Assembly: GCA_943736015.1 (NCBI GenBank)
Contig: OX031065.1
Location: 36,904,427-36,968,426, forward strand
Origin: Tridacna crocea
Lineage: Eukaryota > Mollusca > Bivalvia > Cardiida > Cardiidae
Direction: 5' to 3'
DNA: 64,000 nucleotides
The notes below the pieces were generated by a model. It ran no database searches. It saw nothing but the letters and a program-made list of their open reading frames with translations, and had not been told where the DNA came from. Made by a program: the position numbers and the translations under genes. Shown here in pieces: positions 969 through 55,236 of the stretch. Numbering within the stretch: the first letter of the stretch is position 1; each line of letters starts with the position of its first letter.

Positions 969-1202
969 ATGAATGTTTCAATATATACCTTTTAGTAAGG
1001 CGAATCGTGGTCACTGAAACCTCGATGAAGCGATGGTCGGACAAGATGTACTTAAGACCGGAACCTTAGACATCAAACCACCACCCAATGCATTTCTACG
1101 TGGACTGCGTTTCCAAGTAAGTTCATAATTACACTGAGTCCCATTCTGTCATGAGCTGATACCTCATTTCTGTTACAGATAATAGCCACGCTGTCCGAAA
1201 TG

Positions 1203-4489: not shown

Positions 4490-4772
4490 CCTTGGAAATT
4501 AAGCACAGTCGAACTCGTGGTGACCGATGATGGACCACCGGAACTACGCATATACAATCAGAAAGACCAAAGTCTTAGAGATGTATACCCTTTGGAAGAT
4601 ATTAATGACGTAACTTTGTGCGGTTCCAAGACGCATGCTCATGCGTTCGAAATTATTTCCGGCAACAAACCATTAATTATCATGTCCGGAAGTACTGAAC
4701 TAGAAAGTCGAGATTGGATATGGACTCTTCGAAAACTGTTTTGGCCGGATGTTCTTGTAGAACCTGAGGAAG
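4490..4772 (+). CDS. Tailless Dok paralogue, PH-domain exon
   Basis: The acceptor is TTTTGTTGCAG before CCTTGG and the donor is GAGGAAG/GTATAT. The exon is 283 nt, entering in phase 0 and leaving in phase 1, exactly like 46624-46924. It starts PWKLSTVELVV, parallel to SWKKKWVVLH of the second gene. A family-F element ends about 165 bp upstream. Confidence 0.88.
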
Positions 4773-7700
4773 GTATATCTACTCCTGTCGTTTCGTGAAA
4801 TTTCTTTTTTAAACTACATGCATACATTTTAGATTGCATTCTAGTTCAAAATTTAGAAAGAAGCACGCTTTCTTAAAAGCTTAACCGTCTGGTTTGGCCA
4901 ATCAAAAAATGAGTTCCTTTGGAATTCAGGAAATTTTTGCGAATCATACTTTGGAGGGATAAAAGAGAAAAATATATGTTTCTTTTTTTAATCAAAACGC
5001 TCAGATATTGTACATACCTAGGTTTGTGTAATACCAATATGTTCTCCAATTTGAAAATGAGTTGAATGACGAAAGGTTAGAAACATGATTTAGCAAATTA
5101 TGTGCTATATAATCATCTCGGTCATTGTTTTTGTTCATGTTATTTAGTTGATGAAGCAATGTGTTGACAAAGGGTTTGTTGAAGGGCAAAACCTAATGTT
5201 TATTGGAGTCTATGTATTGCACGATCCTTGATTTTAGAATGGAAATGTTTCTGGTAATGTTCTTCTAAAGAGCTACCTCATGTAAAGGCAAATTAACTAC
5301 CGGAAGCATGTTCTTCACCTGCGTATACTCCGGCCATGAAATATTCCCTAAGATAGGAGGACACTTTGACACATAGAGTATGGTTGTACACATGCTTTTG
5401 GAACATTAACAGTGGGTATTATCGCAGCAAAATATTCACTCGAAACTTGTCTAAATGAAGACGTCCAAGGCACATGTTTATGCTATTTTTGTATGTGAAT
5501 ATAAATTGTCTTCTTTAGCAAACAGCTTAACAGCAGTTATTGCACCCTATGTTGTCCGATAGCATGCCAGTTTGTTTATGGCAATATCTCTAATGTATCG
5601 ACCCATTTTAACATCTACATGTCTGATAAAATTGGACCGTGCTGTGTCCGAAAATGTTTCTCAATTTGTTTGTATTTCCTTTTTTTTCTGATCCAAAAGG
5701 CTCGAACAAGCTGCAGCTACTACCTAGCGAGGACTCTGACAAGTTGAAATTGTCGGGTGGTGTTTACGACATGCGAGTATCTGTTGTTGGCATAAGTTTA
5801 AGCCTTCTATACAAGTGCAGCACAGAAGACAGTAGAATAACGCCCGTCGAGCCCTTCTCTGGCCAAGATGGCAGGGAATCGATGTCGATACCACTCACTA
5901 CAATCGGACAGTTCAGAATAGAAATGGAGAGGAAAACGACCTGTCTTGTTCTAGAAACAACGGCGTAAGCTTGTTAAATCATTACACTACTTGTTGGCCT
6001 ATACACTAATGTGAAAACATATTAAAAAAAAAAACCTTAGAACATGCCAGAACAGAATACATACAGGATATTTTTTTTTCGGTGAAAGATCGAAATTTAT
6101 TTCATCTCGTGAACACCATCGTTAATATTTTCACGAGTGGGGCAAAGATCGAAATTTATTTCATCTCGTGAACACCATCGGTAATATTTTCACGAGTGGC
6201 GCTGGCTGCGCCACTCGTGAAAATATTAACGATGGCGTTCACGAGATGAAATAAATTTCGATCTTTCACCGAAAATAACAAATATTCTATTTATTTCATG
6301 CTTTCAACCCTTTCTGGGAGAAGCTTTATCAAAATCCAGTACAGTTCTTTTCTGTTATTCCCCGTGGCGTACCCCTCCCGAATACAATATTACGTCAAGC
6401 GCGAGAAATGTAAGGTATCAATATGACGTCATATTTCCCATCTGGTTGTGAGGCACGAGCAATTTACTTAGGCAACAAGAACGTGAAAATCGGTATTTTC
6501 ACTGGTAGTACCAGTGTAAGATCGAAAAATATTTTCACTGCTGTTTCTCGATATCATACCGGAAAGCATGAAATAAATAATGCTACGGGAAATTACTTTT
6601 TCTTAAGAACAATTATAGAGTTATTTATTGTCACACCTACAATATAACGTCCAATGAAATCGTTTTAATACTACTACGTGAGTACAGAATATATTATTCC
6701 ATATTGAGCGCTGTAGAGTCCAATTTGGATTTTTCAGACCGAGGCAGTGTCCATTGTGGATTTTTCAAACGAGGCTAGAGTCCATAATATCGATATTATA
6801 CCGGAAGAGTAATTTACCAAAGTCCGTTGTCAAATAAAAAAACAATTTCAAAACCCTCTTTGCTATGTTTTGATTCTTTATTAACAATCATTATTACTTG
6901 AATCGAAGTGATTCTCTATACGTCTTGTTTACATTAAATTCAATACGGAAATGTGAAATAAAGGGATCATTCAAAATGTACAATTGGGTATGAATTGAAC
7001 TGGATTTATACAATACATAACAAGTCTATATTTTGCACTCGGCTATCGCCTTGTCCAAAATATGGACAAGTTCTGCAGTGTACTCGTCCAATAGAATTCA
7101 GCATTGTACCCAAGCATGTTAACCTTTTCCAAACAATCCCTGGTTTTTACGGGTCAGGAATAGAAGCCTTTTGAAAACATAGTGGGAAAAGGAGAAAATG
7201 CTGGTAACCAGCATTTTCTCCTTTTTCCACAATGTTTTCTACCCTAACATGTAGAAAAATAATCTTTTAAGCAACTGTTAATTTTCATCTGCAAAATGCT
7301 TTCAATTTGGTCTGGTCCAAAATTTGCCGTTTGGGAAAGGGTTAAATAACCTCTAAGTATTGTACCCAGATAAGTTAAATAACCTCATACTATTTCCCAC
7401 ATGTATAACCTGAACTGCATGCTTTTTGTCCTTTTTAGTCTCTTTCTTGTTGTCACACAAACAAACGATCTTGATAGAGTTTTCATGTGAACCAACTTAA
7501 AAGTTTCCAATATATATATTTCAAAAGTTAAACCAGGTTACTCCAGCATTATGAATTCTGATATTCACTCTGACGTTTTTTGTGCTAAATAACTTAAAAG
7601 AGGCTTTATATCCGATAGTAAAACGCCCGAACAGCGTTATTTCAAACCTTTTTTTTGTTCAAAAAAATATCTCCATATCGGATAGTGTAGATTCCAGATC

Positions 7701-8646
7701 AGACTGCACGTTCTGTGCAGTCTGATCTTGATTTACACTTTCCGCAATAGATCAGAGAGTCGCGCTTAGCAGCTCACGGATAAAGTCCACTTTTTCAACA
7801 AAAAAATAAAAGTATGGTCAACTCATAATTATACTCATAATAGTGACCTTGGCTTCATATACCTTCCACTCTAGTTTTAGCATCTTCGCAAGTCAAGGGT
7901 GACGATCCACTACGCTTCTCTACCCTTGGCGGATCGAGCTTGATTTTTAAATTCCCTCGATACGCATTTTCGATACGCAGCTAGCTCTAACTGCAACGAA
8001 TCAAATTGCTCGTAGCATTTCATTTTGGATAAAAAATAGAACACGGTCGCAACCTTTCGAATAAAAATAGAAGGTAAACACGGATACCTCCGTGGATGTT
8101 GGCAAGATCTGTAATGATTTATATCCGAAAAATTATTGACGAACTAAAATTAAAGAAAATTTCAATGTGACGAATCAATTATCGGAGGTTTTATGCTCTA
8201 TTCCAGCACCTGACGTTGGAATGTCGAAGTACGTTTGTGGTTACTGTTTCACGTTGACTTAATGTATTCGTAAGCGTTTTGTAAAACGATATTTCATTGG
8301 CTATCAGAAATATGATTTAAAGGGGGATAATAAGCAGCATCCAACTGAGGGCGTATCGGAGGAATCTCGAAATCGGGCTCGATCAGCCAAGGTAAGATCC
8401 ACGTAGTGATCGTAACCTTGGCTCGCGAAGATGAGTTTTAGAAGGTCTTCTTAGTTGTAGTTTAAGAATATCCATATTTTTAATTGCAGGCAAAATGAGC
8501 ACGGTCACATTACACTACAGTTTAAGAAGGCGGGTGAGGATAGCTGTGATATCGAGGCTGTGATGGATATTCTAAAAAGTGCCATATTTCGAGCAACAAA
8601 CAATTTACATGACTGCATTTCTAGTACAAAATGGCGATTAGCATAA
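4490..8646 (+). CDS. Dok-like PH-PTB protein, tailless paralogue (3 exons, 5' end missing)
   Basis: Join 4490-4772, 5700-5964, 8490-8646 gives 234 residues and a TAA stop. The first exon encodes the later PH domain, ending in the invariant-Trp helix (DWIWTLRKLFWPD). The next two encode a PTB/IRS-type domain, ending in the long C-terminal helix (IEAVMDILKSAIFRATNN). It aligns along its whole length with the Dok gene at 39889-51825, and the introns have the same phases (0, 1, 2). The protein stops about 10 residues after the PTB, so the tyrosine tail is absent. Where the family has two basic residues for phosphotyrosine (KR in the downstream gene), this copy reads TIGQF. The first coding exon (about 26 residues) is not found between 1 and 4489 and probably lies outside the window. 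Dok members are membrane-proximal adaptors of tyrosine kinases; a decoy or scaffold role here is inference. Confidence 0.85.
5700..5964 (+). CDS. Tailless Dok paralogue, PTB exon 1
   Basis: The acceptor is a T-rich tract ending CCAAAAG and the donor is GGC/GTAAGC. The exon is 265 nt, phase 1 in and phase 2 out. It encodes the first PTB strands (LSGGVYDMRVSVVGISL) and the region where the phosphotyrosine-binding basic pair should be, here PLTTIGQF. Confidence 0.87.
6074..6286. repeat. Family I hairpin with one arm duplicated
   Basis: The segment AAGATCGAAATTTATTTCAT..CACGAGTGG occurs twice in direct order (about 6088 and 6145), then once inverted (to about 6280) around GCGCTGGCTGCGC. It lies in intron 2 of the tailless Dok paralogue. 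Confidence 0.75.
7119..7345 (+). mobile_element. Family A TTAA MITE (reference copy)
   Basis: TTAA flanks, termini CCTTTTCCAAAC and TTTGGGAAAGGG, and a central hairpin with arms GAAAATGCTGG / CCAGCATTTTC extended by GGGAAAAGG. A TTAA target and CCC-starting termini are the marks of piggyBac-type transposons; with no coding capacity it is a MITE. It lies in intron 2 of the tailless Dok paralogue. Confidence 0.85.
7600..7790 (+). mobile_element. Family C element
   Basis: Palindrome GATCAGACTGCACGTTC / GTGCAGTCTGATC followed by GAGTCGCGCTTAGCAGC; no clear TTAA. Confidence 0.65.
7881..8433. mobile_element. Family F element in intron 2 of the tailless Dok paralogue
   Basis: Flanked by an 8-bp duplication AGTTTTAG at 7873-7880 and 8434-8441. 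The internal + strand (8090-8270) still reads NVTNQLSEVL and GMSKYVCGYCFTL, homologous to the segment in the 3794 copy but with stop codons. Confidence 0.82.
8490..8646 (+). CDS. Tailless Dok paralogue, terminal exon
   Basis: The acceptor is TTTTTAATTGCAG and the entering phase is 2. It encodes HGHITLQFKKAG, then the PTB C-terminal helix, then ISSTKWRLA and TAA at 8644-8646. In the second gene the equivalent exon runs on for some 750 more codons; here it stops at once. The exon starts only 56 bp after a family-F transposon (7881-8433). Confidence 0.88.
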
Positions 8647-14055: not shown

Positions 14056-14847
14056 CGATACTGTATGCTACAAGTAAATTTTAATGCACAGAACATGCAG
14101 TCTGATCTTGGATCCATGAGGGGTGATCAGAAGAACGTGAACCAGGGACGGTATCGGAATATGGTTATAAAAAGCAACTTGAAGTATTTTTTATTTTTTA
14201 AAGTAACCTCCTCTTAGTGCTATGCACTTACTCGTTCTTGATTTCCATAAGCGAAGCAGGTCTAGGAGCGGGTCACGTGACGTTACCATCAAGGACCAGG
14301 TCATAGTGAGGGTTAGCTCCTCTCTGCTCTCGTAATGCATGTCACATAGAAAATCTTTCAAAACAGAAAGTGGTCAGAGGACACATGGAGTCAGGACTGA
14401 ATTATACGGAGCGTTGGCAGGTGTTTCCATTTTTAGTTTGTGCAGTTTCCAGTACAAATGAGGCTCTGTGAGCTAGGGCGTTATTTTGGTGTAAAGTGAC
14501 GTCACTCTGCAGGATTTCTGGCTAAGTTTTTCGTACCATGGATGTGAAATTTATTTTAATAAGGTGGGTATAAAACTCAGTATTGACTGTAGTATGTATA
14601 GATACAATATGATTTAGAAGAAAAACATGGGAACAGAAATAATTGATTATTCCCCAAAACATAACTTAGAAACTGCAATATTTGGGTCATTAATATCGAA
14701 TTGTAAATTTAATTTCAGTCATTTAGCAGGATAAGAGTTAATAAAAAGGCAGATTTTCAGACTTGTTCAAAGTCAAAACATTTGCAGACGACTTCTTGAC
14801 TTAACTCTTTACTAAACGACACAATTTTAGACTGGTCCAAATTGAAA

Positions 14848-16348
14848 ACAAAATGTATACTAATTGGACCAAAACATAAATTAAATTCTATTAATCTAGT
14901 ACTAAAAATTAATGACGTTTGCATTGAACTTGTTGAGTCTCATAAGATATTAGGTGTACACATTGACAAGCATTTGTCGTGGTATGTACACATTGGTAAA
15001 ACTTGCACTGCGATCAACAATAAAATTAATTTGTTTAAAAGGATTTCGACGTACCTAACAATGCAAATGAAACAATTATTTTACAAGAGAAAAAGAAGAC
15101 GCAAGGGCGTCAAGGTCGCCCGAAAATGATTTTTTTCCCCCATTATTAAACTGAGAAATATGTAGACAACAGAATTAATCTGACTCAATTTTAATCAATT
15201 TTTTCAGTTATTTTTCATTTGTGATAAAAATAGCTAGATCTGTTGTTTTCCAATGAAATTGACATGACAATAGTGACCTACAATGTCATAAATTTGCCAT
15301 ATGACCAACTGTCAAAATAAAGTATGGGCTTTCGCACTGCAAAACGTTCAAATGCCCGATTTACATATTATTCTACTTTTATGCTAGTATTCAATTTCGC
15401 CATCTGAGAATAACTGCATAATTAAAAAAAATGCTACAAATACATTTTTTTCAGCCATGAGTACAAAAATATTGTATTTCGTTTATAATTGGAGATACAT
15501 GTATACCTTATAATTGGTCAATGATTACAAAATATACACGTGGTTACTAAATAGTTTATTTTTCAACTTACATTTAAGTTGTATTTCCCTTGTGAAGTTT
15601 GTTTTTCCATTGCGCCGGTCCCGCGCAGTGGTAATTTAGAAGAAGTTTAATGATCTGGGTACTCAATAGGTATGGGGAAAAATTCAGCTTATTTAACTTA
15701 TAACTTATCAAGTAATATCATCTTTATTATATATACGAGTATTATCAACCATAAACTCATTCTTTTTTTCAAAATGGTCAATGGTCTAGTTCCAAACTAC
15801 CTATGCTCTCTTGTCCCGCCCACTATTGGAAGTAACACGACGTATAATCTTCGTAATTCTAATGACTTGGCAAACATAGTTTGTAGAACTAGCGTTTTTA
15901 TGAATTCCTTTCTGCAATCAGGTGTAAACGCATGGAACTCTTTGCCACAAGCTACAAGAGAAACTGACTCTCTCTCGTCGTTTAAACGTTTGCTGAACAT
16001 AGACAAACCCACTCCTTGTAAACTGTATTTTTTTGGGAAAGAAAAATGAAATTATTCATACTCGACTTAGAAATACATGTAAATGTAGCGATCTAAAACA
16101 ACATCTCTTCTGGAAAAATATTGTGGCTTCTCCTCTTTGTCGTTGCGGGGAAGTTGAATCTAATACACACTACTTCTTTTAATGCAGATTTTATCATTCG
16201 AACAACACTCGGACAACATATTAGTGCAAAATCTGCTTTTAATATTGATACAGTTCTTTTTGGAGACAATGAACTCTCCCTTGTCGAAAACAAACAGATC
16301 TTCAATGCAGTTCATGAATACATTGATAAAAGCAAGAGATTCTCTTAG
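14848..16348 (+). pseudogene. Broken non-LTR retrotransposon (LINE) 3' part
   Basis: The first piece (14848-15086) reads KTKCILIGPK..HKILGVHIDKHLSWYVHI, the end of a reverse transcriptase. About 560 bp of other sequence, including a family-Q repeat, follows. It resumes from about 15730 as FFKMVNGLVPNYL..WNSLPQATRETDSLSSFKR, then in another frame CRCGEVESNTHYFF and IDTVLFGDNELSLVENKQIF, the usual LINE C-terminus. Frameshifts and a missing stretch make it dead. Its 5' end joins a family-A right-end fragment. Confidence 0.75.
15300..15650. repeat. Family Q repeat inside the LINE
   Basis: Shares TTTCGCCATCTGAGAATA, GCTACAAATACATTTTTTTC and the CCATTGCGCCGGTCCCGC end with copies at 17690 and 18258. 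No terminal repeats were recognised. Confidence 0.55.
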
Positions 16349-18545: not shown

Positions 18546-18975
18546 TCCGCACTTTAGGCCTACCGGGAAAGAGTCATTATCTCCCGCTAGATGACATTCT
18601 ATAAATAGTCGAATCATCGCAGTAAAGAGTAGGAGCAGTTCTGCATTTCCATTGGTTCCTAAGATCATGTGACTGGACGAGTTCATTTGCGTTAAAAATA
18701 GATGCATTCTGCACAAGAACATTAATTGTTTCACAAAATGTTGCGCAGCAGACCGTTAATAATTCTTTCACGATTCTTTATCGGTTTAAAAACAAGTAAA
18801 CAACCTCAAAAAAGGTGAAGAAAACCCCACACAACAATTTCACAAACATTCACACCTATTTTACCAAAATAAACCTGGCGAATATGATGAAAGATTTCAA
18901 CCGGAAGTACCTACACTCTCCATGAACATCTCTTCTGAACTATATTAAATATAAGGTCGCCGGCTTCTGCCGGGC

Positions 18976-19483
18976 GACCAACAACTCGTACATACTGCCT
19001 CTCTTCGACTATTGTTGTACAGTTTGGTGGAAGAGCGCTAAATATAGGACCTCTAAACTATCTGTACTTCAAAAAAGAGCAGCCCGCATCACATTAGGAG
19101 CTCCATCTAGAACACCGTCAATTGAACTTTTCGCAGAACTAAACTGGTTGACCTTTGACAATAGATGTGATTATCACGCTGGTGTTTTAATCTTTAAGTG
19201 TCATAATAACCTTTCACCACCATATATAAGGGACATTATTTCGTTTTCTAGAAACACCAAGTATACTTTACGATCATCTGCTCATTATGATATCATTAAC
19301 TCAAGATTTAACACTTTGTATAAGAAAAAAGCATTCTCGTATTACAGCATGAACATATGGAATGAAATTCCTATTTCAATCAGAGCAGCAACTTCCTTAT
19401 CTAACTTTAAACATCAGTTTAAACAGTATTTGTTCAGAAAGCAATCTATCACCTCACCAAATAACACAAACAAATTACCGTAA
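18976..19483 (+). pseudogene. LINE reverse transcriptase C-terminal fragment
   Basis: Open frame reading YILPLFDYCCTVWW, SVLQKRAARITLGAPSRT, LNWLTFDNRCDYHAGVLIFK, MNIWNEIPISIRAATSLSNF and a stop. This is the end of a non-LTR retrotransposon ORF2. It is 5'-truncated but keeps one uninterrupted frame, so it is younger than the 14848 copy. A (GT)n/(GA)n tract follows at 19585-19638. Confidence 0.8.
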
Positions 19484-26180: not shown

Positions 26181-26405
26181 TTAACTCGTTACCAAACGAC
26201 AAAATTTTAGACTAGTCCAAATTCAAAGCATTTGCAGATGACAAAAGTAACATGAGTCAAAAATTAGAATTACAAGGAGGCCAGAAAACATTGTTGGAAA
26301 AGGAGAAAATGCTGATTACCAGCATTTTCTCCTTTTCCCACAATGTTTTTGGAAGACTTACTTTTCAGGATCGTGAAAACCAGAGATTTTTCGGAAAAGG
26401 GTTAA
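26181..26405 (-). mobile_element. Family A MITE
   Basis: TTAACTCGTTACCAAACGAC start, GGAAAAGGG-TTAA end. Confidence 0.82.
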
Positions 26406-39856: not shown

Positions 39857-39966
39857 ACTACAGAGATTGTTTTAACCGGACCGCCAGAATGACGGAAGGC
39901 GGGATAGAACAGTACGGCTATATAGACATAAAGCAGCCACCAAAGGTCAAAGGTCGGAAATTAAAG
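39857..39966 (+). CDS. Dok gene, first coding exon with 5' UTR
   Basis: The exon starts at 39857 after a pyrimidine tract ending TTTTTCAG, so at least one non-coding exon lies upstream. ATG is at 39889-39891 with A at -3 (AGAATGA). It encodes MTEGGIEQYGYIDIKQPPKV and six more residues, ending at the donor TTAAAG/GTACGT. The exit phase is 0. The next intron is 6.7 kb and full of MITEs. Confidence 0.87.
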
Positions 39967-42900
39967 GTACGTTTATTGAGCCCTTTCTCTTTGTACCTGA
40001 CTACAAGATGTTAGACTAGTCCATTTATTTTGAAAGACTAGATATGTTGACGACGGCGTTGCTTAACCCTTCCCCAAACGGCAAATTTTGGACCAGATCA
40101 AATTAAAAGCATTTTGCAGATGACAAATTAACAGTTGCTAAAAAGATTATTTTTCCATATGATAAAGTAGAAAACATTGTGGGAAAAGGAGAAAATGCTG
40201 GTTACCAGCATTTTCTCCTTTTCCCACAATGTTTTCAAAAGGCTTCTATTCCTGACCCTTAAAAACCAGGGATTGTTTGGGAAAAGGTTAAATGATTTGG
40301 ATCCGTCTATGGATGAAATACTTTTCCACGATAGCCTAAAAATTCTTCCAAGGTCCAAACTTTTGTCATGATTTCTATCTTACCCTTTCTTATCTTATCC
40401 CCAATTTCAACATCATACGGATGATATTACTACGACATGATATTAATATCATCTTTAGGATTTACGGCTTTCTAGGGTTTAATCAGTGCTACTTGGCAGA
40501 GGCAAAGGATTGTCTTTCTTACTCAACATTTCGGATAAAGGAGGGCTAGTTCAGCAGGTGGCAGTAACGCTTAAATCGCGAGATAATTTATATAATGAAC
40601 TCTCTTGATCAGGAAAACAGACCAAAGCCTAAGTTTCATTTTTATCAAAAAGCGGCTTATGATGGGTTCAAGAACAGACTGCAAAGAACCTGCAGTCTGA
40701 TCTTGATCTATTACTTTCGGAAACTAGACGACTGATACTGATCTGAAAATGTCAAAAACAAGAGCTTACGTGTACACCAAGAGTTAAATTTTTCATCGTT
40801 GAATGTTATAAACTCGACCTGTGTGGACGACTTGGGGTACAATCTGCTATACAGTTTACGCTAAAAGGGTTGAAGGAAAAAGCTGACGATATGGATCTAA
40901 GATCAGACTGCACGCTCTGTGCAGTCTGAACTTGATCTATACCGTCCCCAAAAGACTTTGTTTTCGCTAATGAGGCTGAAAGGGTAAACACGAAATACAT
41001 CTGGACAAACATTCCCAGACAAAATATTATTGCAGGTTTGTGAAACCCGACACCGATACGATTCTAGGAATATTAGGGTTTGCGGTGGAAGGGGGTTCCA
41101 CTTTCAAAGACTTAACCCTTTACCCCATAAGGCATTTCTAAGGTATCTCTAATTGACACTAAATAACAGCAAGGATGAAGCCGTTTCTTATGTGTATATG
41201 ACACCTTTTGATAGCATAGAAAATATTGCGGCAAAAGGTGAAATTGCTCGTGACGAGCAATTTCACCTTTTGCCACAATGCTTTTCAAAGGCTCCTACAA
41301 GCAATGCGTAGAAATGAGTATCTATGGAGTAAAGAGTTTTAAATTGTTCAGCAAGCCTCGATGGGCATGTTCGGACAGAGAAGATCAAAGATCAGACTGC
41401 AAAGAATGTGGTGTCTGATTTTGGATCTACACTATCTGATACAAAAATTCTTACAACATAAAGAACTTTTGAAATAAATCGCAATTAATTTATGTTGGGT
41501 TTTAGTATCAATTATGAATTTTTTGTATTATATGCGGCAGGTAAAGGGAAAAATTTTTACTATGTCGCGCGTAAAAGGGTATTTTCGAAAGAAAAGAGGA
41601 TGGAAAAATTATTACATGTAATACATGTAGGGATTGGGGCTGAGACTTTCAAAATTTTTGCATTCCCTCAAAAATTACTGGGGACTCCAGTACTTTCTGT
41701 CCCTCTATATACAAACTTGTCTTCCTCACTCCGATTTGTTAACGCGTTGCACATAGAGTCACTTCTTTGATCTAACTTTTTTTCGCATACCTTTGGCTAA
41801 AGCAGGGATCATATACATGTATTGTCGTTTTACTTCAAAAACCTCGTAACTACAGCTTGTTTCAAGCTGTAGTTACGAGGTTTTTGAAGTAAACCGACGA
41901 TATGTGTACAATAACAATCCGAATTTATTGGCGTAAATCTACATATACTTAGTTTATTGAAACGCGGCCGGGTTTTCGTAATACATTCTGACAAAGATAG
42001 GTATTTTCTTGGCCTAGTATACTCCTTTGTCCAACTTCACGAATTATGCAACATCGACAGGATTTCCCATTTACTCTCTGTCTCGGCGATAAATTCCGTG
42101 TCTAATCTTTCCGATGTCAAAAGTGATTTAAGCTTTATTACGAGATATTACGATTTGTTTTCTTGTCTTGACCATCTGTAGCCCATTTCCTGGATTAGTT
42201 ATTTAACGATTTGCTTCATTGACAATAAACATTTACAATATTTACTGGGACACGTTTCACATGAAGTTAAAGAGAGTGGTTTCTTAAAGATTTGGAGTAA
42301 TAGTAGAAAAGGAGTAATTCTTAGTTCCAAGTATTTCCCCCTTTAATTAACCCATTATCACACAATCCCTACTTTTGATGCCCATGAGAAAGAAGTTTTT
42401 AGAAAACATTGTGGAAAAAGGAGAAAATGCTGGTAACCAGCATTTTCTCCTTTTCCAACAATGTTTTCTACCCTTCACAAAACAAATTTCAAAATTTCAG
42501 TCACTTTTATTTTGTCGTCTGCAAATGCTTTCAATTGGGACCAATCTAAAGTACTGTCGTTTGCATCTTCGCAAACCAAGGATACTAACTCCACTTTGTT
42601 CGTTACGTACCTTGGCCGCTCGCCTCTTTAAAAATCGAAACACCCTGTCGAATATCACGAGTTGCGTAACCTTTGCTGATGTTATTTCTGACAAATCAAA
42701 ATGCTCGTAATAAGATTTGTAGGTTATGCATCAAATATGGCTGCGCTTTCGGATTCATCACACCGAAACAAGACGAACAGACGCAATCATTTGGCTAAGG
42801 AACCCGTCCTAATACTTCACATAATTGATCGTAAACGAAAAAAAACCTCACTAAATATCGATCGTCTACTCTTTTTTGGCAAATTTCGTCACAAACACGA

Positions 42901-45900
42901 CAACTTTCGTTTTTGATGGGCGCCGCCATTATTGTTTTCTGTTTTGCGAAAGATTTCTTGTTACGGATGGTTTGATTGGACGCGATGGGTTTTGATCGCA
43001 TCCAATGAAAATGCGCAGCGGGAGCTTCGATTTTTAAAGAGGCGAGCGGCCAAGGGTACTACCCTAGTATCCTTGGCTTGCGAAGATGTGTCGTTTGGTA
43101 ATGGGTTAATTTTTTTCTCTGTCATGCATTCAGAAGCGTTATTCCGTAGGGACGACAAAACTGTATCTAATTGGACCAACTTTAGTTCCCTGGATAGACA
43201 CGTACAAAAACGGATTTACTTCATAAATCAGCAAAAATTGTGAAACCTCGAATACTGTTAATCACAGTCAAACTATTTTAATTATATACTTGAAAGTATA
43301 AGTCTAGGATCAGGCTGCACGTTCTGTGAAGTACGATTTTAGATTCATACTTTTAGATATCCAATAGCAAATAAAGTTACTGTATAGCGTGCTATAGTTT
43401 CAGGCATCAAATTGAAAGCAATAAACTGTTGGAATTTACGAGGGTTTAATAACGCTTGCGTGAATTTCGTTAAGTGTTCGGGCTATTATGGACAGCTGCG
43501 GTAGCCAGCCTTATAACTTTTGGAGGTTTGGGCTTTAGATACGGGGGTCAGGAAGTGTGTGGGCTTACGCTTAAGTGCCCAGTAAAGCAAGCAGACGTTT
43601 CACTCTTGTCAGAAATGAAGGCCAAAATATTTGCAATTTCGTGTGTCGTTTAGTAAAATGGATGGGGTATACTTAACGTTGGAAACCAGCATTTAAATCT
43701 CCCCCCCCCCCCATTGTTTTTGAAAACCGTCTCCCTTCTGGTAGAAATTTAATAAATTTAATAACCATTGGTTAATTGCTGTTGTCAAAGTTGTTACAAA
43801 GATTTACAAGGGTCAAGCCAGGCTCAGTAAAGGTATGAGGTTCGTAACGTGGAGGACCAGGGTGTCTACTCACCAACCATTCTTAAGACCATTCTTTGTC
43901 TTGTTCTTCAAGATTTTATAAATGTGAAAGTAACCGAACTTCAAATTGGCTAAACCAAATGGTTTAGCCAATCAGAAGTTCGGTTACTTTCACGTTGACA
44001 AAATTCCAGACACTGTAACTGTATGATTCTCATCTTACTGGCGTGCCTAAAAAGTGGACGATGTACGGTAATTCCAAGATCAGACTGCACGTTCTGTGCA
44101 GTCTGATCTTGAATTTACATCGCCCGCAGAAGCCGCTGCTATGGCACGTAGCAATGAGAGGTTTAATTAATCGTTTACTTAAAGAAATACTCGTTCTGTT
44201 CGATTCTGATCGGGATTAAGATAGGTCAGACCTCGAAATTGATTCTCCGTCAAACAAAGAAATGGTGTCAGATAACTTAATCAGAATCACGATTGAGGTT
44301 AGCTTTCCCTTAAACATTTTACCCCATACAGATTGGTGCTTATCAGCTAATGCAGGTGGAAAACCCTACGAAAAAACATTATGATAGAGAGACATGCATG
44401 ACACTGTATGGTACTAGAAACGAGCATGTTCTGCATATGTTAGAAGTGTTTTACGTAGAAGTCTTTATTTTCACAAGGTTATTTATTCTTCACTTCTATG
44501 GGAAGATTTGAAAATGGTCCCTCCCGAAAGAAACCACTACACCTTTGCTTAAATCTTTTAAAGACGATGAAAACGAGTGCCTTTGAAAAAGAAAGTGGAA
44601 AATAAGACAAAAAATCCTCAACTTGTGTGTGTGTGTGGTTTTTTTACCATTTTATGGATAAATTCCAAACGATATGGTTAAAAAAAAACCCCTAAAATTT
44701 GGTATTTCCACCAAATGCTTTAAGTATGGACAAGTCTAGAGCTCTTTTTTGTCCGTTTGGTAAATAGTTAACCCTTTCCCAAACAAGCCCTTGTTTTTAC
44801 GTGTCTGCAGTACAAGTCTTTTAAAAACGCTATGGGAAAAGGAGAAATTGCTCGTAACGAGCAATTTCTCCTTTTCCCACAGTGTTTTTAGCCTTTTTAA
44901 GAACTTTCTGCCTTGTTCTCAAAGTCTAAATTATCGTCTGCAAACTCTTTCAGTTTGGAAGAGTCCAAAATTTGCCGTTTGGGAAAGGGTTAACCGGGAA
45001 TTGTTTGGTGTTTTCAGAAGATTTCTTCATACGGGTCGTGAAATCGAGGGATTGTTTGGTAAGGGTTAATTATTTATCCGACTACAGACAAAATGTAGAC
45101 TTGCACGAAGTGAAACATTAACACATGAAAAGTTCAGTATGCCTGAATTAATGGAATGAATTTGCGAAAGAGTAAAAAACATCGTGAAGAAAGGAGAATA
45201 GTCAGGTTTCCAGCATTTTGTCCTATTCTAACAAGGTTTTCGAGGCTTTTTTCCCCCCTCAATGTTCGTTAAAACTTAGGATAATTTAGTACAGGAGCCG
45301 AAATGGGGAGAGTGGGAAATAATCGCATGATTATTTAGTACAGTTAGATAAACTTTGCTCGCTATATAATCAAAGCAGGTACATGTGAGCCATGATCTAT
45401 AAAAAGGGGGCTTAATGCATCTTCGAAAAGTATCGACCCAGGTCAGCCTGCGCAATCCGCGCAGGCTGACCTGGGCCGAAACTTTTCGCTCTTGGTGAAT
45501 TTTCTGTATATCAAAGGACCAGTTTGCCTCCTGATTAAGTCACTTATTTAAAAAAAGTGGCCATTTCCATGATTACGTGATGACTTGCCCGGCATCATGT
45601 ATCATGGAGCCGCATTAAGCCTCCTTTTGCCAGAGCATGGCTCATAAATGTGATGCATGCATAACCTCACAGCCTGATTAAAATGTGATTCGTACCCGGT
45701 GCTAATTTATTCATCCAAAATTGTTATTATTCTTATTTCGCTATTTATTTTCCGTTCTGTCAGTTCCAGGGCCCATCTCCGATAAATCGTTAAAAAAGTC
45801 TAGTTCATAAAATAGACACAGTATTTAGGTCGATGCACAAATGTTGTTTTTCTTTCTTCTAAAATTTAAGTGCGCAAAAATATAAGACAAGCAACATTTA

Positions 45901-48900
45901 TTTGTTTACCCAAGTTACCCAAGTATGAAGATTGATTGAAATAGTTACAATGAAAAACTGTGCTCACGCAGAGGAATTGGTCTTGCAAGTTTAATGCAGT
46001 ATCAAACGCAATGAGAATTGCCGCAAGCGCAGTTTTGTTTTCTTCTTATGCCAAGGGAAATAACTCAGAATCAGTTTCTAAGTTTTGTAGCGAGTTATCT
46101 CTCCGATTATGTATTTCTATAGCGCATTTAATTTGTACTTGTATTGTCTTTTTAGCTCACGTATTGTTTAAGAAATACTCTTCTTTCTATCGTGGTTTAT
46201 CGTTCAATAAAACACAGTTGTGAGTTATGAGGCACAATAAATAATCCACGAGGGCGATAGCCTGAGTGGTTTATTCATTACGCCTCATTACTCACAACGT
46301 GGTTTATTGAATTACAAACCACGATAGACAGAAGATTATTTCGATTCTAACATGAGCAACTCTTAATCAAAGGAAAATAAGTTCATACTTAGAGGGAAAA
46401 CACGGATGTAGATTATTTTCCATTGAATAACTTATTTACTTTATACAGAATGGCGTCACTCTATTAAGGATAAAGTAGATTTTACCACGCTTTCGTTGCA
46501 CTGTGTTTATAGTGCTGAATTCACGTGTCAATTTAGGATAAGGTTTAACATATAACTGCTGATGATAAGGATGATGATGATGATGGTATTGATGAACTAT
46601 TTTCTATTTCTTTTATTTTACAGTCTTGGAAGAAGAAATGGGTTGTTCTGCACGAGATGTCTATTCGGTCAGCCGGCAGAACAGCGGCTAAAGTCGATGT
46701 CTACACGGATGAGAGCACTGCCATCAGGTCTCCAGCTGATAAGGTCACTTTCATCTTGGAATATGTGACTGCAGTTCGAGCCGCGAAGTCCAAGAAGCAT
46801 GACAATGCGTTTGAAGTGGTTGAAAACGAGCCAGTGCTCCTTCTGGCAGGAGAGACTGAGTTTGAGACCCAGACTTGGTTGACGGCATTTAAAAAGATTT
46901 TTTGGCCAGATCAAGTTGAAAATGGTACGTACAGCAGAGGCGTAATCAGTTATTTTGATTGGTGCGGCGAAATTGGGCTCCGAAGGCGCGAAGCTATGCA
47001 AGGGGGTGCGGCATCATATAATTGGTGCGGCATCAGCTAATTTTATTGGGGCGGGATGCAGTATCAATCGAAAGTATTGGTGCGGCGAATGCTGCACCTG
47101 CGGCACCCGTGTCTACGCCCATGTACAGGGTACTACTCGCCCCTATTTCTTAATTAACCCTTACCACACAATGACGACTTCTGAAGACGCTGAGGTAGAA
47201 ACCTTATGAAAACATTATGGGAAAAGGAGAAAATGCTGGTTACCAGCATTTTCTCCTTTTCCCACAGAGTTTTCTGTCCTATCAAAGAAAAATCATTTCA
47301 TATGAGCCACAATGAAACTGTCATCAGCAAATGCTTTCAATTAGGACCAGTCTATGAATTTGTCGTTTGGTAAAGAGTTAAATGTGCCAAACGCTGACCA
47401 AAAAAGAGTAGAAAACATCACCGCGGTAAATGATACCATGCAAGTCGTCACATAGTTAGAAGTCCAGAAAGGCCAAGGTCCGTATTCTCCAACTAGTTTT
47501 AAGAACATTCTTAGTCTTCTTTTTCTTCACAATTTCGTCAGTGTGAAAGTAACAGAACTTCAGGTTGGGTAAACCATATGGTTTAGCCAATCAGAAGTTC
47601 TATTACTTTCACTGTCAGAAAATCTTGAAGAATAAGACAAAAGAACGTTCTTAAGAATGATTGATGAATATGGATCCATTTTGCCTATTATCATACAGAA
47701 TCAGGTGATACGCTGGTCCTTGGATTTGCAAATAATTTCCCAATGGCGAAAAGTTCTGTCAGCCTACGCAGACAGACAGAACGATAGGTTTTGCAGACGC
47801 ATTTAACTACTTTTCAATGTAGGTGACTAGCGTTATCTGTAAAGGTCCATGGTTTAAATTCTAGGATTTACCTGCCTGCAAAATAGTCATTGCCTGTACT
47901 TAGTATTTGCTTAGTTTAAAGACTTTACGTATACATGTATTGACGTTAGCAGACAACCTTTGTGGGTTTTGCAGCAAGCTTATTTAAAAAAAAACGCAAA
48001 AAAAGAGAGAAATTGTAAACAGGGCTGTACATATTTTTTCATATGTTTAGCCTTAGTTCATTATGGTCATTTTATATGTTACAGAAATGTCTTTAATGTT
48101 TTCTGCTAAGCAATTATTCAATTATGCAATTAGGTAACATAAGCGTGATTGACTAATCTCTCAAGTTAAAACTTTCTAACATTTTATTTGTTGCAGATGC
48201 GTTTTCGACTACCATTATCCAGAACGACCACACCAAACGATTAATGCTAGAAGGCACTTACACGATGACCATATCGCCGGAAGTCATATCAATCCAAAGC
48301 GCCACCTGTAATTCGTATGAATGGTCACTGCGCACGCTCAAACGCTTCAACCTCGACACGCACGAAGACTTTCCTGCGGAACAAGTTTTGAAAATCGAAT
48401 GTGGACCGTAAGTAAAGTACATTTTGTGTTTTTAGACCACAAAATCTTGAAACTGTTCATACTAAAAGCTTTTGCAGACGACAAATGTAACGTGGCCTGT
48501 AGTATACTTTTCTTCCAAAGAATAGAAATCATTACAGGAGAAGGAAAGGGCTCATAGTAAATTTTTTGGTTAATGGTTTTCAATCGATCAACATCCCAAG
48601 GAAGACCAATCTTGCATAAGTGTGACAGCAGCAGCAATTGTTTGCACGGAGCAGTTTCTCCTCTGCCACAATGTAATTTCATAGTGATAACCGTTATTTT
48701 ACTTAGGCGGTTTTAGTCATTTGCAGACTTTGTTTAGCCGATGGCTTCAGCATACAAGAACACTGCGAGTTAGTGTCTATATGTGCACTTATATCTTTAC
48801 CTTAGTATTTTCTTACTTTTACTTGAAGTACCGTATGCATGTATCATAAAAAATAAGACGATATGTATCTTACTTTTTCAGACATATGGTTTGTTACCTT

Positions 48901-51825
48901 TCTACCAAACGAGAAAAAATGTAGACTTGTCCAAATTGAAAGCATTTGCAGACAGATGAATGTGTGACTAAAAAATTAAAACTGGACTTTAGAAGAGAAG
49001 AAAACATTGTGGGAAAACGAGAAAATGCTGGTTACCAGCATTTTCTCCTTTTCTCACAATGTTTTCAAAGGCTTATACATCAGGATCATCAAAAGTCGTC
49101 ATTGTGTGGTAAAGGGTTAACAGAAATCTCATTATAAAACAGGACATACTTGACTTAATACCATTAACCCCCTCAACTCGAAAGAGGTAAATTAAAATGC
49201 ATGAGCATGCACGTATTGTGGCCAGTCGATAACATCTGTAATTCGCCCTTTTTTTTAATAGCAAAAAATAAACTAGATTGTCTAGGCCGAGGATCAGTTA
49301 AAAAAGTCTAAGAGACATTATAACGGTTTTTGAAGGTTTTGGTTCCTAGAAGTTTACCAATATTATTTTTCCAAATACCAAATCTGGGCCATTGCTATAT
49401 AAATCTATGTAATTTATATAAATAAATAAACAAATTAAAAACCGAAATCGAGACTGTAGCAAAAAAGTGCACAACATTTATATGTTACAGGAAATCTGAA
49501 TGCGGAGAAGCGTCGTTCCAGTTTCAGGCGGAAAATGTTGCTGAAATACTAGAAGCCATCAAAAGAAATATTTTCAAAGCGGTGAACATGAAAAAGTCTG
49601 AAAGCAGTCCAACAACTACAAACAAAGTGCAAACAGATAAACAGTGGCGTACTTCAGTGACAAGTACGACCAGTAACGATAGTGACAGATGTCGGAGTGG
49701 TACAGTCGATTCTGAACAACGATATAGAGACCTGCTCGAAAGTCCCGTGCAGGACAGTAAACGTAAACGACTGAACAGTGAAAGTTCCGATATGTCACGG
49801 AGAAGCAGCGACGATGCTTCATCGTTTCCGACCAAGAAAACTCTGAGTGTAACCTTTGAAAATGTCGAGGAGAAACCCAAGACTGTAGATGATATTCTGA
49901 AAGTCGATGACAGTATTACAAATGAAGAAGATGAGTATAATAGAGTTGATTTTAAAGGTAGAAGGTCATCAGGTTCTGGTAGTAATATTATCACAACATT
50001 TACAGTAGCGAAACCTGGATATCAAACTAAAGTCCTTTTGGATGATAAAGGTTACAGTCATGTAGGTATTGCAGTGAACGGACCCGTTATAGAAGACGAT
50101 AAGTCAAGATCTTTATCTAATATCTCGTCGCATTCATCTGTATCATGTCAGTCAGATTCGACAAATTCAGGCGATTCAGGCTGCCTTCACCAAGGATTCG
50201 ATAAGAACCAACCCAAAAATCGTTCGCATAGATCAACAAATTCATTTGACAGTGCCGTTTCAACCTCGTCAACAGTTGATCAAAATGATACATCAGCTGA
50301 GAAACTAAAGTATCAAAGTCCAATAACAGTTGAAATTCAGGAATTAGAAATGACCGCAGAAGAACTTGTGAATGCTAAGAACCGAACGCACGACATGAAA
50401 CATACAGAGACAAGTATATACCAGGACGTTGTTATCGAAGATTGTGACTCAAGTTCTAAAGTGAAGGAAGACAAAGAAGCAACGCCTTTGGTTAAGTCTA
50501 GGTCTTTTGGAGATTTTAATGCTGCTGAAAACCATTATGAGGAATTGGAAAACTATAGGAAGGGAAAGAAAAACCTTGTCAAACATTTAGGAATGGATCC
50601 CAAAGTGGACCCTAAATCTATCCCTCCTGCCTTGCCAGCAAGACCTCTTTCTTATAAAATGAAGAGAAAATTTAAGCATAACGATAAGAAGCTATTCACA
50701 CTACCATTTGTAAAAAGTAAGAACAGGAAAGAAAAGGAACGACAAAGAAATAGTTCCACATCAAGCGAGTCGGATACCGAAGAGGGAAAGTCACGTGAGG
50801 AACTCTCAATTAGTGCATGGCCACTTGGTAACAAATCTGTTACCATTGGCAACAATGAGATCTATCAACCAGTTGCGATTCAAAGATATTTAGATGACGA
50901 GGGTGATAACTTAACACCGACAAAACGTGAAAGAAGCAGTTCTCTAAATCTTAATACCTCGTCACAAATGAGGAGACCTAGTCAGTTGATAGGGAAAGAG
51001 AATGCAATGTGGAAACACAACAGAAATGTGTCGATGAATGTTGATTTATTGCAGAGAATGAAAGATGGTGGGAAGACAAATTTAAACACCGCTTTTAGAG
51101 ATGGACTTGACAACGTAACGTTTCTACAAACACTTGACAGTTCAGAAACTCTTTGTGATAAATCAAACATGTCAGACAGAACGTTTGACGATGGAGATGA
51201 ACCTATTTATGCAGAAGTTCAACCACTTTGTAAAGATAATAAAGAGGCTGTTGATGAACCTTTTCCGAACATTGATTCCTGGGCACCCCATTCTCCACAA
51301 GTTACTAACAAATGTTTGGACGAAACTTTTTATGAAAATGACTCTCTCAACACAAGTACAGATGTAGATATTTTTAATCAAGGTTTTGTGACCACACACA
51401 ACATGAACAATAGCAATAGTACAACCGCCAATTTAATAGATCTATCTGTTGATGAAACCATAGAGACCAGTGGAAACAGGACTTCTAAAATAGCTGCAGA
51501 AATCTTTACATTAGCTAAAGACACAACTTTACCACTGAATACCAATCAATCAGATTTACCAAGAGATAGGTCTGCAGAGTTATTGGATTTGTTCACACTT
51601 GGTGTAATGACACCTCTGCCAGAAAGCAAGTCCAATTTAATAAATAATACAGTGAGTGAGACAAATTTAACTGTCAACCTGACAACTAATTCTTTACCTA
51701 TGAATTTGATATCTAAAGAACTGAATCAACCCACACCAAATGAAAGTGTTTATATGGACATGAGTTCGTGTAAAAATGAAAGTATATATGTTATGCCATC
51801 TTTACTTAAAACGGATAAGAAGTAG
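39889..51825 (+). CDS. Docking protein (Dok) family adaptor: PH + PTB + long tyrosine tail
   Basis: Join 39889-39966, 46624-46924, 48197-48407, 49491-51825 is 2925 nt, in frame, 974 residues. The PH domain is residues 9-119 (YGYIDIK, SWKKKWVVLH, closing Trp in TWLTAFKKIFWP). The PTB is about 128-226 (LEGTYTMTIS, basic pair in LRTLKRFN, final helix VAEILEAIKRNIF). The tail (227-974) is Ser/Thr-rich and looks disordered. It carries a class II SH3 ligand PALPAR (576-581) and tyrosines in SH2-type contexts: Y507 QDV, Y546 EEL, Y655 QPV, Y770 AEV, Y811 END (Grb2-like YxN), Y951 MDM (YxxM, PI3K-like), Y963 VMP (YxxP, Crk/RasGAP-like). Dok proteins bind membranes and activated tyrosine kinases and recruit SH2 effectors. 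IRS is the main alternative, but the short PH-PTB linker and the PTB pattern favour Dok. Confidence 0.92.
40063..40291 (-). mobile_element. Family A MITE in Dok intron 1
   Basis: Full length with TTAA flanks, about 100 bp after the donor at 39966; a perfect hairpin this close to a splice site may fold in the pre-mRNA. Confidence 0.83.
40640..40720. repeat. Family C palindrome
   Basis: CAGACTGCAAAGAACCTGCAG..TCTGATCTTGATC in Dok intron 1; a second one lies at 40885-40945. Confidence 0.5.
41112..41338 (+). mobile_element. Family B MITE in Dok intron 1
   Basis: TTAACCCTTTACCCCATAAG start, ATGGAGTAAAGAG end; stem GAAATTGCTCGTGACGAGC. Confidence 0.8.
41822..41905. repeat. Family L palindrome
   Basis: Arms of about 35 bp (TTTACTTCAAAAACCTCGTA, ACTACAGCTTG and complement) with almost no loop. 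Its twin is at 61345-61425. Confidence 0.75.
42347..43109 (+). mobile_element. Family A MITE interrupted by a family F element (Dok intron 1)
   Basis: TTAACCCATTATCACACAAT start and TGGTAATGGG-TTAA end, split at TGTCGTTTG by the 525-bp family F element at 42564-43088. Confidence 0.87.
42564..43088. mobile_element. Family F element nested in a family A MITE
   Basis: TIRs CATCTTCGCAAACCAAGG and complement. The exact 9-bp duplication TGTCGTTTG is at 42555-42563 and 43089-43097. The minus strand encodes SCRVCDEICQ, YDQLCEVLG and, after one stop, CVCSSCF, a diverged version of the ZAD-like segment. Confidence 0.85.
43876..44000. repeat. Family K inverted repeat
   Basis: Arms GTGAAAGTAACCGAACTTC and GAAGTTCGGTTACTTTCAC around TGGCTAAACCAAATGG; Dok intron 1. 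Confidence 0.7.
44040..44165. mobile_element. Family C element, partial
   Basis: Palindrome CAAGATCAGACTGCACG / CGTGCAG-type arms, symmetrical flanks TGGACGATGTACGG and TTTACATCGCCCGC. Confidence 0.6.
44768..44993 (+). mobile_element. Family A MITE, CTCG-loop subfamily
   Basis: The stem centre is GAAATTGCTCGTAACGAGC, like family B, but the ends are family A (TTAACCCTTTCCCAAACAAG). The closest relative in the window is 60152-60379. Both TTAAs are shared with partial neighbours (about 44690-44771 and 44990-45069). Confidence 0.82.
45385..45644. mobile_element. Family D element, complete
   Basis: Ends TGAGCCATGATCTATAAAAA and AGAGCATGGCTCA. Palindrome CCCAGGTCAGCCTGCGCAA. In Dok intron 1. Confidence 0.72.
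46180..46333. repeat. Family M inverted repeat
   Basis: CTTTCTATCGTGGTTTATCG at left against AAACCACGATAGACAGAAG at right, with a second inner pair GTGAGTTATGAGGC / GCCTCATTACTCAC; about 290 bp before the PH exon. Confidence 0.65.
46624..46924 (+). CDS. Dok gene, PH-domain exon
   Basis: The acceptor is TTTTATTTTACAG and the donor AATG/GTACGT. It is 301 nt, phase 0 in and phase 1 out. It encodes SWKKKWVVLH through TWLTAFKKIFWPDQVEN, the bulk of the PH domain with the conserved Trp of the last helix. Confidence 0.92.
47154..47381 (+). mobile_element. Family A MITE in Dok intron 2
   Basis: TTAACCCTTACCACACAATG start, GGTAAAGAG-TTAA end. Confidence 0.8.
47498..47660. repeat. Family K inverted repeat in Dok intron 2
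   Basis: Outer arms TTTTAAGAACATTCTTAGTC and AGAACGTTCTTAAGAATG; core GTTTAGCCAATCAGAAGTTC. Confidence 0.65.
47755..47800. repeat. Family D palindrome core, degenerate
   Basis: TTCTGTCAGCCTACGCAGAC with a shortened right arm. Confidence 0.35.
48197..48407 (+). CDS. Dok gene, PTB exon 1
   Basis: The acceptor is ATTTGTTGCAG and the donor GGACC/GTAAGT. It is 211 nt, phase 1 in and phase 2 out. It carries the start of the PTB and the phosphotyrosine-contacting segment LRTLKRFN. Confidence 0.92.
48894..49120 (-). mobile_element. Family A MITE in Dok intron 3
   Basis: Left end TTACCTTTCTACCAAACG, right GGTAAAGGG-TTAA. Confidence 0.78.
49121..49490. other. Dok intron 3 remainder, nothing recognised
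   Basis: AT-rich intron ending in the acceptor TATATGTTACAG. Similar unremarkable intron sequence lies at 41450-41820, 41905-42345, 43370-43875, 45650-46180 and 47660-48196. Confidence 0.5.
49491..51825 (+). CDS. Dok gene, PTB end and C-terminal tail exon
   Basis: The acceptor is TATATGTTACAG and the stop TAG is at 51823-51825. One 2335-nt exon holds the last PTB strands and helix plus the whole tail. All SH2 and SH3 docking motifs are here, so the tail is a single unit that a duplicate could lose in one step. There is a basic stretch at about residues 586-625 (KMKRK, KKLF, KNRKEKERQR) next to the PALPAR motif. Confidence 0.95.
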
Positions 51826-52654: not shown

Positions 52655-54115
52655 CGTGAAGTTAACTGCCAGTTGACAGTTGACAGTAAATAATTCGATA
52701 ACGATTTGGCAACTGTCAGCCAACTTCACACTTCAGCTGCCAATACGTTTTTAGTCTTTAAACCGAATTGTTAACTGTCAACTGTCACCTGGCTGCCAAT
52801 TCGAATTTGATGTGCTACAAAAGCGAATGGGCAACTGTCAACCGTCAACCAACTTCACACTTCAGCTGCCAATTCGTTTTTAACAAAACCACTGTCTTTG
52901 GATCGAATTGTCAACTGTCGAATTTATTGTGTTAATAAAGCGAATTGTCAACTGTCAACTGTCAGCCAATTTCACACTTCAGCTGACTATTCTTTTTTAG
53001 TAGAAATACTGTGTTTGAAGCGAAAAATCAACCGTCAACTGTCAGCTTGCTGCCAATTCGAATTTAATGTGCTGTAAAAGCGAATCGTCAACTATCAATT
53101 GTCAGCCAACTTCACACTTCAGCTGCCAATTCGTTTTAAGTGAAATTACTGTATCTGAAGCGAATTGTCAATTGTCAACTGTCAACTGGCTGCCAATTCG
53201 AATTTAATGTCCTATAACAGCGAATTGTCAACTGTCAACCCTCAGCCAACTTCACACTTCAGTTCAATTCGAATTTAATATGATAAAACAGCGAACCGTC
53301 AACTGTTAATTGTCAGCCAACTTCACACTTCAGCTGCCAATTCGTTTTTAACAAAACCACCGTCTTTGGATTGAATTGCCAACTGTCAACCGTCAGCTGG
53401 CTGCCAATTCGAATTTAATAACCTATAATAGCGAATTGTCAACTGTCAACCCTCAGCCAATTTCACACTTCAGCTGCCAATTCGTTTTTAACAAAACCAC
53501 CATCTTTGGATCGAATTGTCAACTGTCAACTGTCAGCTGGCTGCCAATTCGATTTTATTGTGTTAATAAAGCGAATTGTCAACTGTCATTCAATTTCACA
53601 CTTCAGCTGACGATTCGTTATAAGTGAAAATACGGTGTCTGAAGCAAATTGTCGACTGTCAGCTGGCTGCCAATTCGAATTTAATATGATAAAACAGCGA
53701 ATCGTCAACTGTCAACCGTCAGCCAACTTCACGCTTCAGCTGCCAATTGGTTTTAAGTGAAATTAATGTATCTGAAGCGAATTGTCAATTGTCAACTGAC
53801 AACTGGCTGCCAATTCGAATTTAATGTCCTATAACAACGAATTGTCAACAGTCAACCGTCAGCCAACTTCACACTTCAGCTGCCAATTCGTTTATAGTAA
53901 AAAACCGCCTTTGAACCGAATTGTCAACTGTCAAATGTCAGCTGGCTGCCAATTTGAATTTAATAACCTATAACAGCGAATCGTCAACTGTCAACCGTCA
54001 GTCAACTTCACACTTCAGCTGCCGATTCGTTTTAAGTAAAAATACTGTGTCTGAAGCGAAAGGTCAAGAGTCAACTGTCAGCTGGCTGCCAATTCAAATT
54101 TAATATGCTGTAAAA
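52655..54115. repeat. Dimeric tandem array, about 140-bp unit, roughly 10 copies
   Basis: Anchor TTCACACTTCAGCTGCCAAT recurs at about 52720, 52850, 52966, 53110, 53248, 53318, 53458, 53590, 53725, 53863 and 54003, mostly 130-142 bp apart with one 70-bp step. Each unit is two half-units, both starting CGAATTGTCAACTGTCAA and ending CTGCCAATTCG, so each half is bounded by a CGAATTG / CAATTCG inverted pair. One half carries CAACTTCACACTTCAG, the other GCTGGCTGCC. No coding frame spans it. Confidence 0.85.
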
Positions 54116-54661: not shown

Positions 54662-54760
54662 TAGTCGCGTAAGCTTGTGTTTACAGTCAGTAGAAATAAG
54701 TAGGAACGCTGATGATTATACGCAGATATCTGAGTATTAACATAGAATTCAGCCGAAAAA

Positions 54761-55119
54761 ATGGTAAATTGTGCAGCCTATGGCTTCAACGTCGAATCTG
54801 GAACACATAAAATTAGTATGTTCAAATTTCCGAAGGAATTAAAAAGGAGGAAACTATGGATTCAACGTTTAAACCGTGGCCGGACAGTAACGGAGGATTT
54901 TGTGCCATCTGTTCATTCCAAATTGTGTTTGAAACACTTCGAGGACAGTCAGTTCTTAATAAGTCCAAAACTCGTAAAAGAAGTTGGTTATAGGAATATT
55001 AGGCTGCGATTAAAACCTGATACTGTGCCGACATTGTTCGAAACTCCGAGTCGAAATAAGATAGGCCATAAGACAGACATTCCGCAATGGCAATCTCCAA
55101 AAAGAAAAACAAACATAAG
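54761..55119 (+). CDS. THAP-domain protein, first exon (one zinc ligand replaced)
   Basis: The frame starts MVNCAAYGFN and ends at a possible donor ATAAG/GTCGGT. THAP hallmarks in order: C4, FKFP (21-24), W33, C56-x2-H59, F60 and a VPTLF box near residue 92. THAP domains are C2CH zinc fingers that bind DNA in the minor and major grooves, found in transcription factors and P-element-type transposases. The second zinc cysteine, expected right after AAYG, is Phe (TTC), one base from TGC. Either this copy is decaying or coordination is altered. No downstream exon was recognised, so the rest of the protein is unknown; without splicing the frame runs to 55189 and stops. Confidence 0.7.
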
Positions 55120-55236
55120 GTCGGTAATTCCTTTAATTGTTTTTCGTAATATTTTATCCTTTTCTAGATCTACATTCTGGACAAAGTAGAAATTGGTGCC
55201 GTTTTCTCCCTTTTTTCCCCCAAATGTTTTCAACAT

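Follow-up and report, generated by a model that had tools for sequence, protein, structure and literature searches.

Gene organization and reading frame

Two Dok-like genes were found in a 64,000-nucleotide stretch of the Tridacna crocea genome (C10:36904427-36968426; the window): a short gene, which is the subject of this work, and a longer paralogue (Table 1). They stand in tandem on the same strand, 31 kb apart. The four exons of the short gene together give a complete reading frame for a protein of 262 amino acids (29 kDa, isoelectric point 5.1) with the order PH domain, PTB-like domain, stop. This appears to be a variant of the known Dok-type architecture, and the functions considered below are predictions from sequence.

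Exon 1 was placed by its alignment with exon 1 of the paralogue (score 36, reached by 0 of 2000 shuffles). Its ATG and phase-0 intron are the counterparts of those in the paralogue, its donor scored 9.3 on the matrix used for all splice donors, and an in-frame TGA is present ahead of it at 1015-1017. The first-pass annotation had set the gene at 4490-8646; this interval holds three of the four exons but begins too late to include the first. Exon 2 matched exon 2 of the paralogue with a score of 129, again reached by 0 of 2000 shuffles, and the score of the exon 4 pair was reached by 4 of 2000. Exon 3 is 54 nucleotides (18 residues) longer than its counterpart, and its similarity alone was not significant, as 226 of 2000 shuffles reached the score; its assignment is based on its collinear position and on the phases of both flanking introns, which are the same as in the paralogue.

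Table 1. Coordinates of the short gene and of its paralogue in the window
Feature	Position	Strand	Description
Short gene, exon 1	1033..1116	+	28 amino acids: start codon and start of PH domain; GTAAGT donor follows
Short gene, exon 2	4490..4772	+	Remainder of PH domain; followed by phase-1 intron
Short gene, exon 3	5700..5964	+	First part of PTB-like domain with presumed pocket segment PLTTIGQF; followed by phase-2 intron
Short gene, exon 4	8490..8646	+	End of PTB-like domain with C-terminal helix, 14 more residues, TAA
Paralogue (Dok-type)	39889..51825; exons 39889-39966, 46624-46924, 48197-48407, 49491-51825	+	Four exons, 974 amino acids

Relationship to the neighbouring gene

The paralogue encodes a PH domain (31.5 bits in Pfam), an IRS-type PTB domain (22.1 bits, cut-off 22), which aligns with Dok2 (E value 0.0078), and a tail. 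The homology of the PH and PTB-like exons to this gene, already proposed in the first-pass annotation, was borne out: BLASTP aligned the two proteins with an E value of 1e-18 and 24% identity over 249 columns, and the three introns match between the genes in position and in phase (0, 1 and 2). In a tree computed with LG+G4 from 140 columns, in which three inner nodes had support below 50, the short and long proteins grouped against eight other PTB domains (five loci of the same genome and DOK1, DOK2 and DOK5) with an ultrafast-bootstrap split support of 94. The branch leading to the short protein was much longer (2.23) than that of the long one (0.46). Common descent with the Dok gene is thus indicated by intron positions and phases, BLASTP and tree. 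The intron inside the PTB domain also ties the pair together, because this domain lies in one open exon at five other loci (L002, L003, L004, L008 and L010). The IRS-like matches L005 and L006 also start inside the PTB domain, so that such an intron is not unique to the pair.

In a search of the whole assembly (1.05 Gb) at E values up to 10, no relative beyond the paralogue was found for the short protein among the best candidates, which were scored. With the PH-PTB part of the paralogue, the only matches besides the two genes themselves were weak and interrupted, one on C17 and one on C5 (E value 1.27). The short gene is best read as an old, fast-diverging tandem duplicate of a Dok-type gene.

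Loss of the tail

The tail of the paralogue contains 15 tyrosines, including those in EPIYAEV, ETFYEND, ESVYMDM and ESIYVMP. This tail is encoded entirely in the last exon, together with the final part of the PTB domain and without an intron between them. The TAA of the short gene (8644-8646) therefore truncates the homologous exon, and no tail exon need be missing. Fourteen residues separate it from N248, where the alignment to the PTB domain of the paralogue ends; this is close to the distance of about 10 residues noted earlier. All three frames past the stop close within 17 codons. When the paralogue was searched against positions 8647-39888 at E values up to 10, the sole match comprised 17 residues at 26275 (E value 5.4). 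The short protein has no tyrosine after residue 160, and a Dok tail with tyrosine or proline docking motifs is absent from this frame. Tail loss in this frame is thus well supported.

Coding capacity and possible decay of the gene

The reading frame looks coding. None of 5000 stretches of 262 codons taken from positions 12000-35000 of the window was free of stops, and the mean was 14.9 stops per stretch (2000 stretches). By codon usage the true frame had the top score among the six in all four exons. The coding sequence scored 0.133, while the maximum over 2000 stretches of the same region was 0.076; the training set comprised 1904 codons of the paralogue and of two further genes from this genome, and as the homologous paralogue makes up half of it, the coding result is somewhat favoured. 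Frameshifts, named earlier as a sign of a pseudogene, were not found in the 262 codons, and every splice dinucleotide is intact. We infer that selection maintained the frame through most of the gene's past; its function may have been lost recently. Synonymous sites between the two paralogues are taken as saturated at 29% protein identity.

The gene may nevertheless be in decay. Selection would have acted for a long time after the duplication and then been released, with loss of the tail and a fast branch, so that the protein would have no important function now. The long branch, the missing tail, the loss of recognition by Pfam (see below) and the low scores of the donors that follow exons 2 and 3 (5.7 and 3.9) would all fit this. 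The unbroken frame, the coding-like codon use and the intact splice dinucleotides speak against it, and two donors of the paralogue are merely somewhat stronger (6.9 and 5.9). Decay is nearly as likely as the pseudo-adaptor function proposed below and ranks close behind it.

Phosphotyrosine pocket and PH surface

According to one report, the phosphate in a docked phosphoserine-peptide model of the Dok1 PTB construct lies at Arg54, Arg69 and Arg70, the residues said also to recognise phosphotyrosine (PMC4479986). These correspond to R207, R222 and R223, as the numbering was matched to the Dok1 sequence and to the domain limits 154-252 given in PMC3938774. In the multiple alignment all eight other PTB domains have arginine at the sites of R207 and R222, and five of the eight at that of R223. 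In the favoured register the short protein has G, A and Q at the three sites, and the paralogue K, P and K. The sites of R222 and R223 sit at the shared phase-2 intron, where BLASTP, MAFFT, hhalign and local alignment concur. At the R207 site the programs disagree: MAFFT and hhalign with known PTB domains set KRF of the paralogue opposite GQF, whereas BLASTP and local alignment set it opposite EPF. In this alternative register the short protein has E and A at the sites of R207 and R222, and in both registers the basic pair is missing; arginine was found at neither site.

In two structure models of the short protein, SMSIP-LTT-IGQFRIEM forms two strands separated by three helical residues, which we take to fit the Dok alignment. 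Given their low confidence, the models support the GQF register by secondary structure alone. The first-pass annotation had placed TIGQF opposite TLKRF and suggested that phosphotyrosine binding may have been lost. The direction of this contrast was right and the pairing is plausible, but the register is insecure, exon 3 being at chance level, and the paralogue used as the yardstick is itself non-canonical and already lacks R222. With G, A and Q opposite the three Dok1 contacts in the favoured alignment, the basic phosphotyrosine-holding residues of the PTB-like domain have probably gone, and a loss of phosphotyrosine binding is plausible.

The domain may instead have changed its ligand. Basic residues are present nearby, and R195, R200 and K201 (FRIEMERK, in the beta5-beta6 region) would then hold phosphate or another acidic ligand; the 18 additional residues of exon 3 alter the loop ahead of the strand, and Dok1 can accept a phosphoserine peptide in the same pocket, as stated in PMC4479986. 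The domain has a net charge of -7, the canonical sites are empty in the favoured alignment, and the low-confidence models cannot place the side chains of the three residues, so this alternative is considered unlikely.

The beta1-beta2 segment binds phosphoinositides in many PH domains. Its net charge was +2 in the short protein, as compared with +8 in the paralogue (27 residues each). We infer that most of the basic surface may have been lost, and the earlier statement that the protein keeps its membrane contacts is unsupported. The PH domain scored 22.1 bits in Pfam (E value 2.2e-4), below the cut-off of 25.1, although exons 1 and 2 are each homologous to those of the PH domain of the paralogue.

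Other features of the window and the genome

Four IRS-type PTB exons (L009-L012) were found at G000:C4:10505000-10561000. Like the short gene, each has a stop at most about 10 residues from the PTB domain. Unlike it, they retain the RR and GR sites and encode the domain in one exon. An open segment on the strand of L012, about 1 kb upstream of it, matched a B-box (ANCHR-like, 27.9 bits, cut-off 27); the cluster may represent a family of tailless genes that combine a B-box with a PTB domain. The copies included in the tree, L008 and L010, fell outside the group formed by the window pair.

Eight of the 19 Pfam IRS matches are located at G000:C13:1.80-5.01 Mb (L013-L020), and the six that were read have LQDILANHPFTKISNWSSG.TYFHMTIGNLLRG or a close variant in common. 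These six look like MyTH4-FERM pieces, judged by their motif, and the matches were set aside as not relevant; they are probably an expansion of MyTH4-FERM genes.

In the window, an open frame at 54746-55189 contains a THAP domain (51.3 bits, cut-off 23.9), and a long repeat run like CAACTGTCAACCGTCAGCCAACTTCACACTTCAGCTGCC occupies 52700-54000, directly downstream of the paralogue. Open frames at 14800-16049 and 18926-19483 resemble reverse-transcriptase remnants by eye; Pfam gave no match in the latter at E values up to 0.1.

Proposed function

The short protein resembles Dok1, Dok2 and Dok3 (PH domain, IRS-type PTB domain, tyrosine-rich tail) in the order of its domains and in its homology to the neighbouring Dok-type gene. 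It differs in that it lacks the tail and, in the favoured alignment, the phosphotyrosine-contacting arginines, and its PTB domain falls below Pfam detection. The full-length model matched Dok7 (PDB 3ml4, a PH-PTB receptor-binding dimer) in Foldseek with an E value of 4.1e-5; Dok7 differs in having a long C-terminal region. Dok7 is a precedent for PH-PTB dimerisation, and in the mouse its function was largely compromised without the C-terminal region, part of it being kept by PH-PTB alone (PMC10117378). The PTB variant R158Q is one of several myasthenia alleles with variable reductions of MuSK phosphorylation (PMC10117378). Among the literature titles listed, none concerned a tailless or phosphotyrosine-blind Dok in a mollusc.

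The reading tentatively favoured here, with a probability of roughly 0.38, is that of a pseudo-adaptor, analogous to a pseudokinase. The protein would no longer read phosphotyrosine or recruit SH2 effectors, but the fold of its PH-PTB body would persist, together with the hydrophobic groove next to the C-terminal helix. The protein would act through contacts that do not require phosphate; most likely it would pair with the PH-PTB part of another Dok, the neighbour first, and so tune that Dok.

Several observations weigh against this reading. Besides the disagreement of the alignment programs on the R207 register, Pfam listed no PTB domain in the short protein at E values up to 10, and PDB sequence searches did not recognise one. 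Against a profile of known PTB domains without the paralogue, hhalign gave a score of 14.4 (best of 100 shuffles, 20.0) and hmmsearch 0.5 bits. The mean predicted local distance difference test scores of the models were low (49.6 and 44.7). No PTB domain was among the 50 matches listed for the PTB-only model in each of two fold comparisons, FERM F3 and other PH-like domains tied with Dok-5 in Z score, and the tandem PH domains of Rtt106 were among the Foldseek matches. The partner is a guess, and dimerisation is predicted by analogy with Dok7. Selection on the present-day protein is putative, the analysis having covered a single species.

In a more far-reaching form, which is doubtful, both ligand pockets and the tail would have been lost, and the gene would be maintained solely so that its product pairs with the full-length neighbour and holds it in check, as a built-in regulatory subunit that arose by tandem duplication.

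A dominant-negative decoy, suggested in the first-pass annotation beside a putative new scaffold, would compete by blocking receptors or membranes. A tailless PH-PTB protein is a classical inhibitor form, although a literature search gave no paper for it. Both targeting surfaces look weakened here, which makes competition for phosphotyrosine sites or phosphoinositides unlikely. As a phosphotyrosine-blind PTB domain cannot compete for phosphotyrosine sites, a decoy would need another contact, for instance PH-PTB dimerisation; because the pocket looks empty, the dominant-negative function is rated as quite improbable.

It is least probable of all that the protein is not always tailless, with a strong donor inside exon 4 (CGG/GTGAGG in CGGGTGAGG; last exon base 8533, window 8533-8534; score 9.2, with only 11 of the 3431 GT sites of the window scoring at least 9) joining a downstream exon: this donor is the sole anatomical hint of alternative splicing noticed, its use would remove the C-terminal PTB helix although the sequence beyond 8533 matches the paralogue (K..IF.A.N), and the paralogue offers neither an intron between PTB domain and tail nor a better downstream match than the 17 residues mentioned above.

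If the protein of the short gene is not made, the gene is no more than a duplicate at an advanced stage of being lost. If it is made, the pseudo-adaptor would be the signalling-adaptor counterpart of pseudokinases, and a natural experiment that separates the folding and dimer role of a PH-PTB body from phosphotyrosine reading and effector docking.
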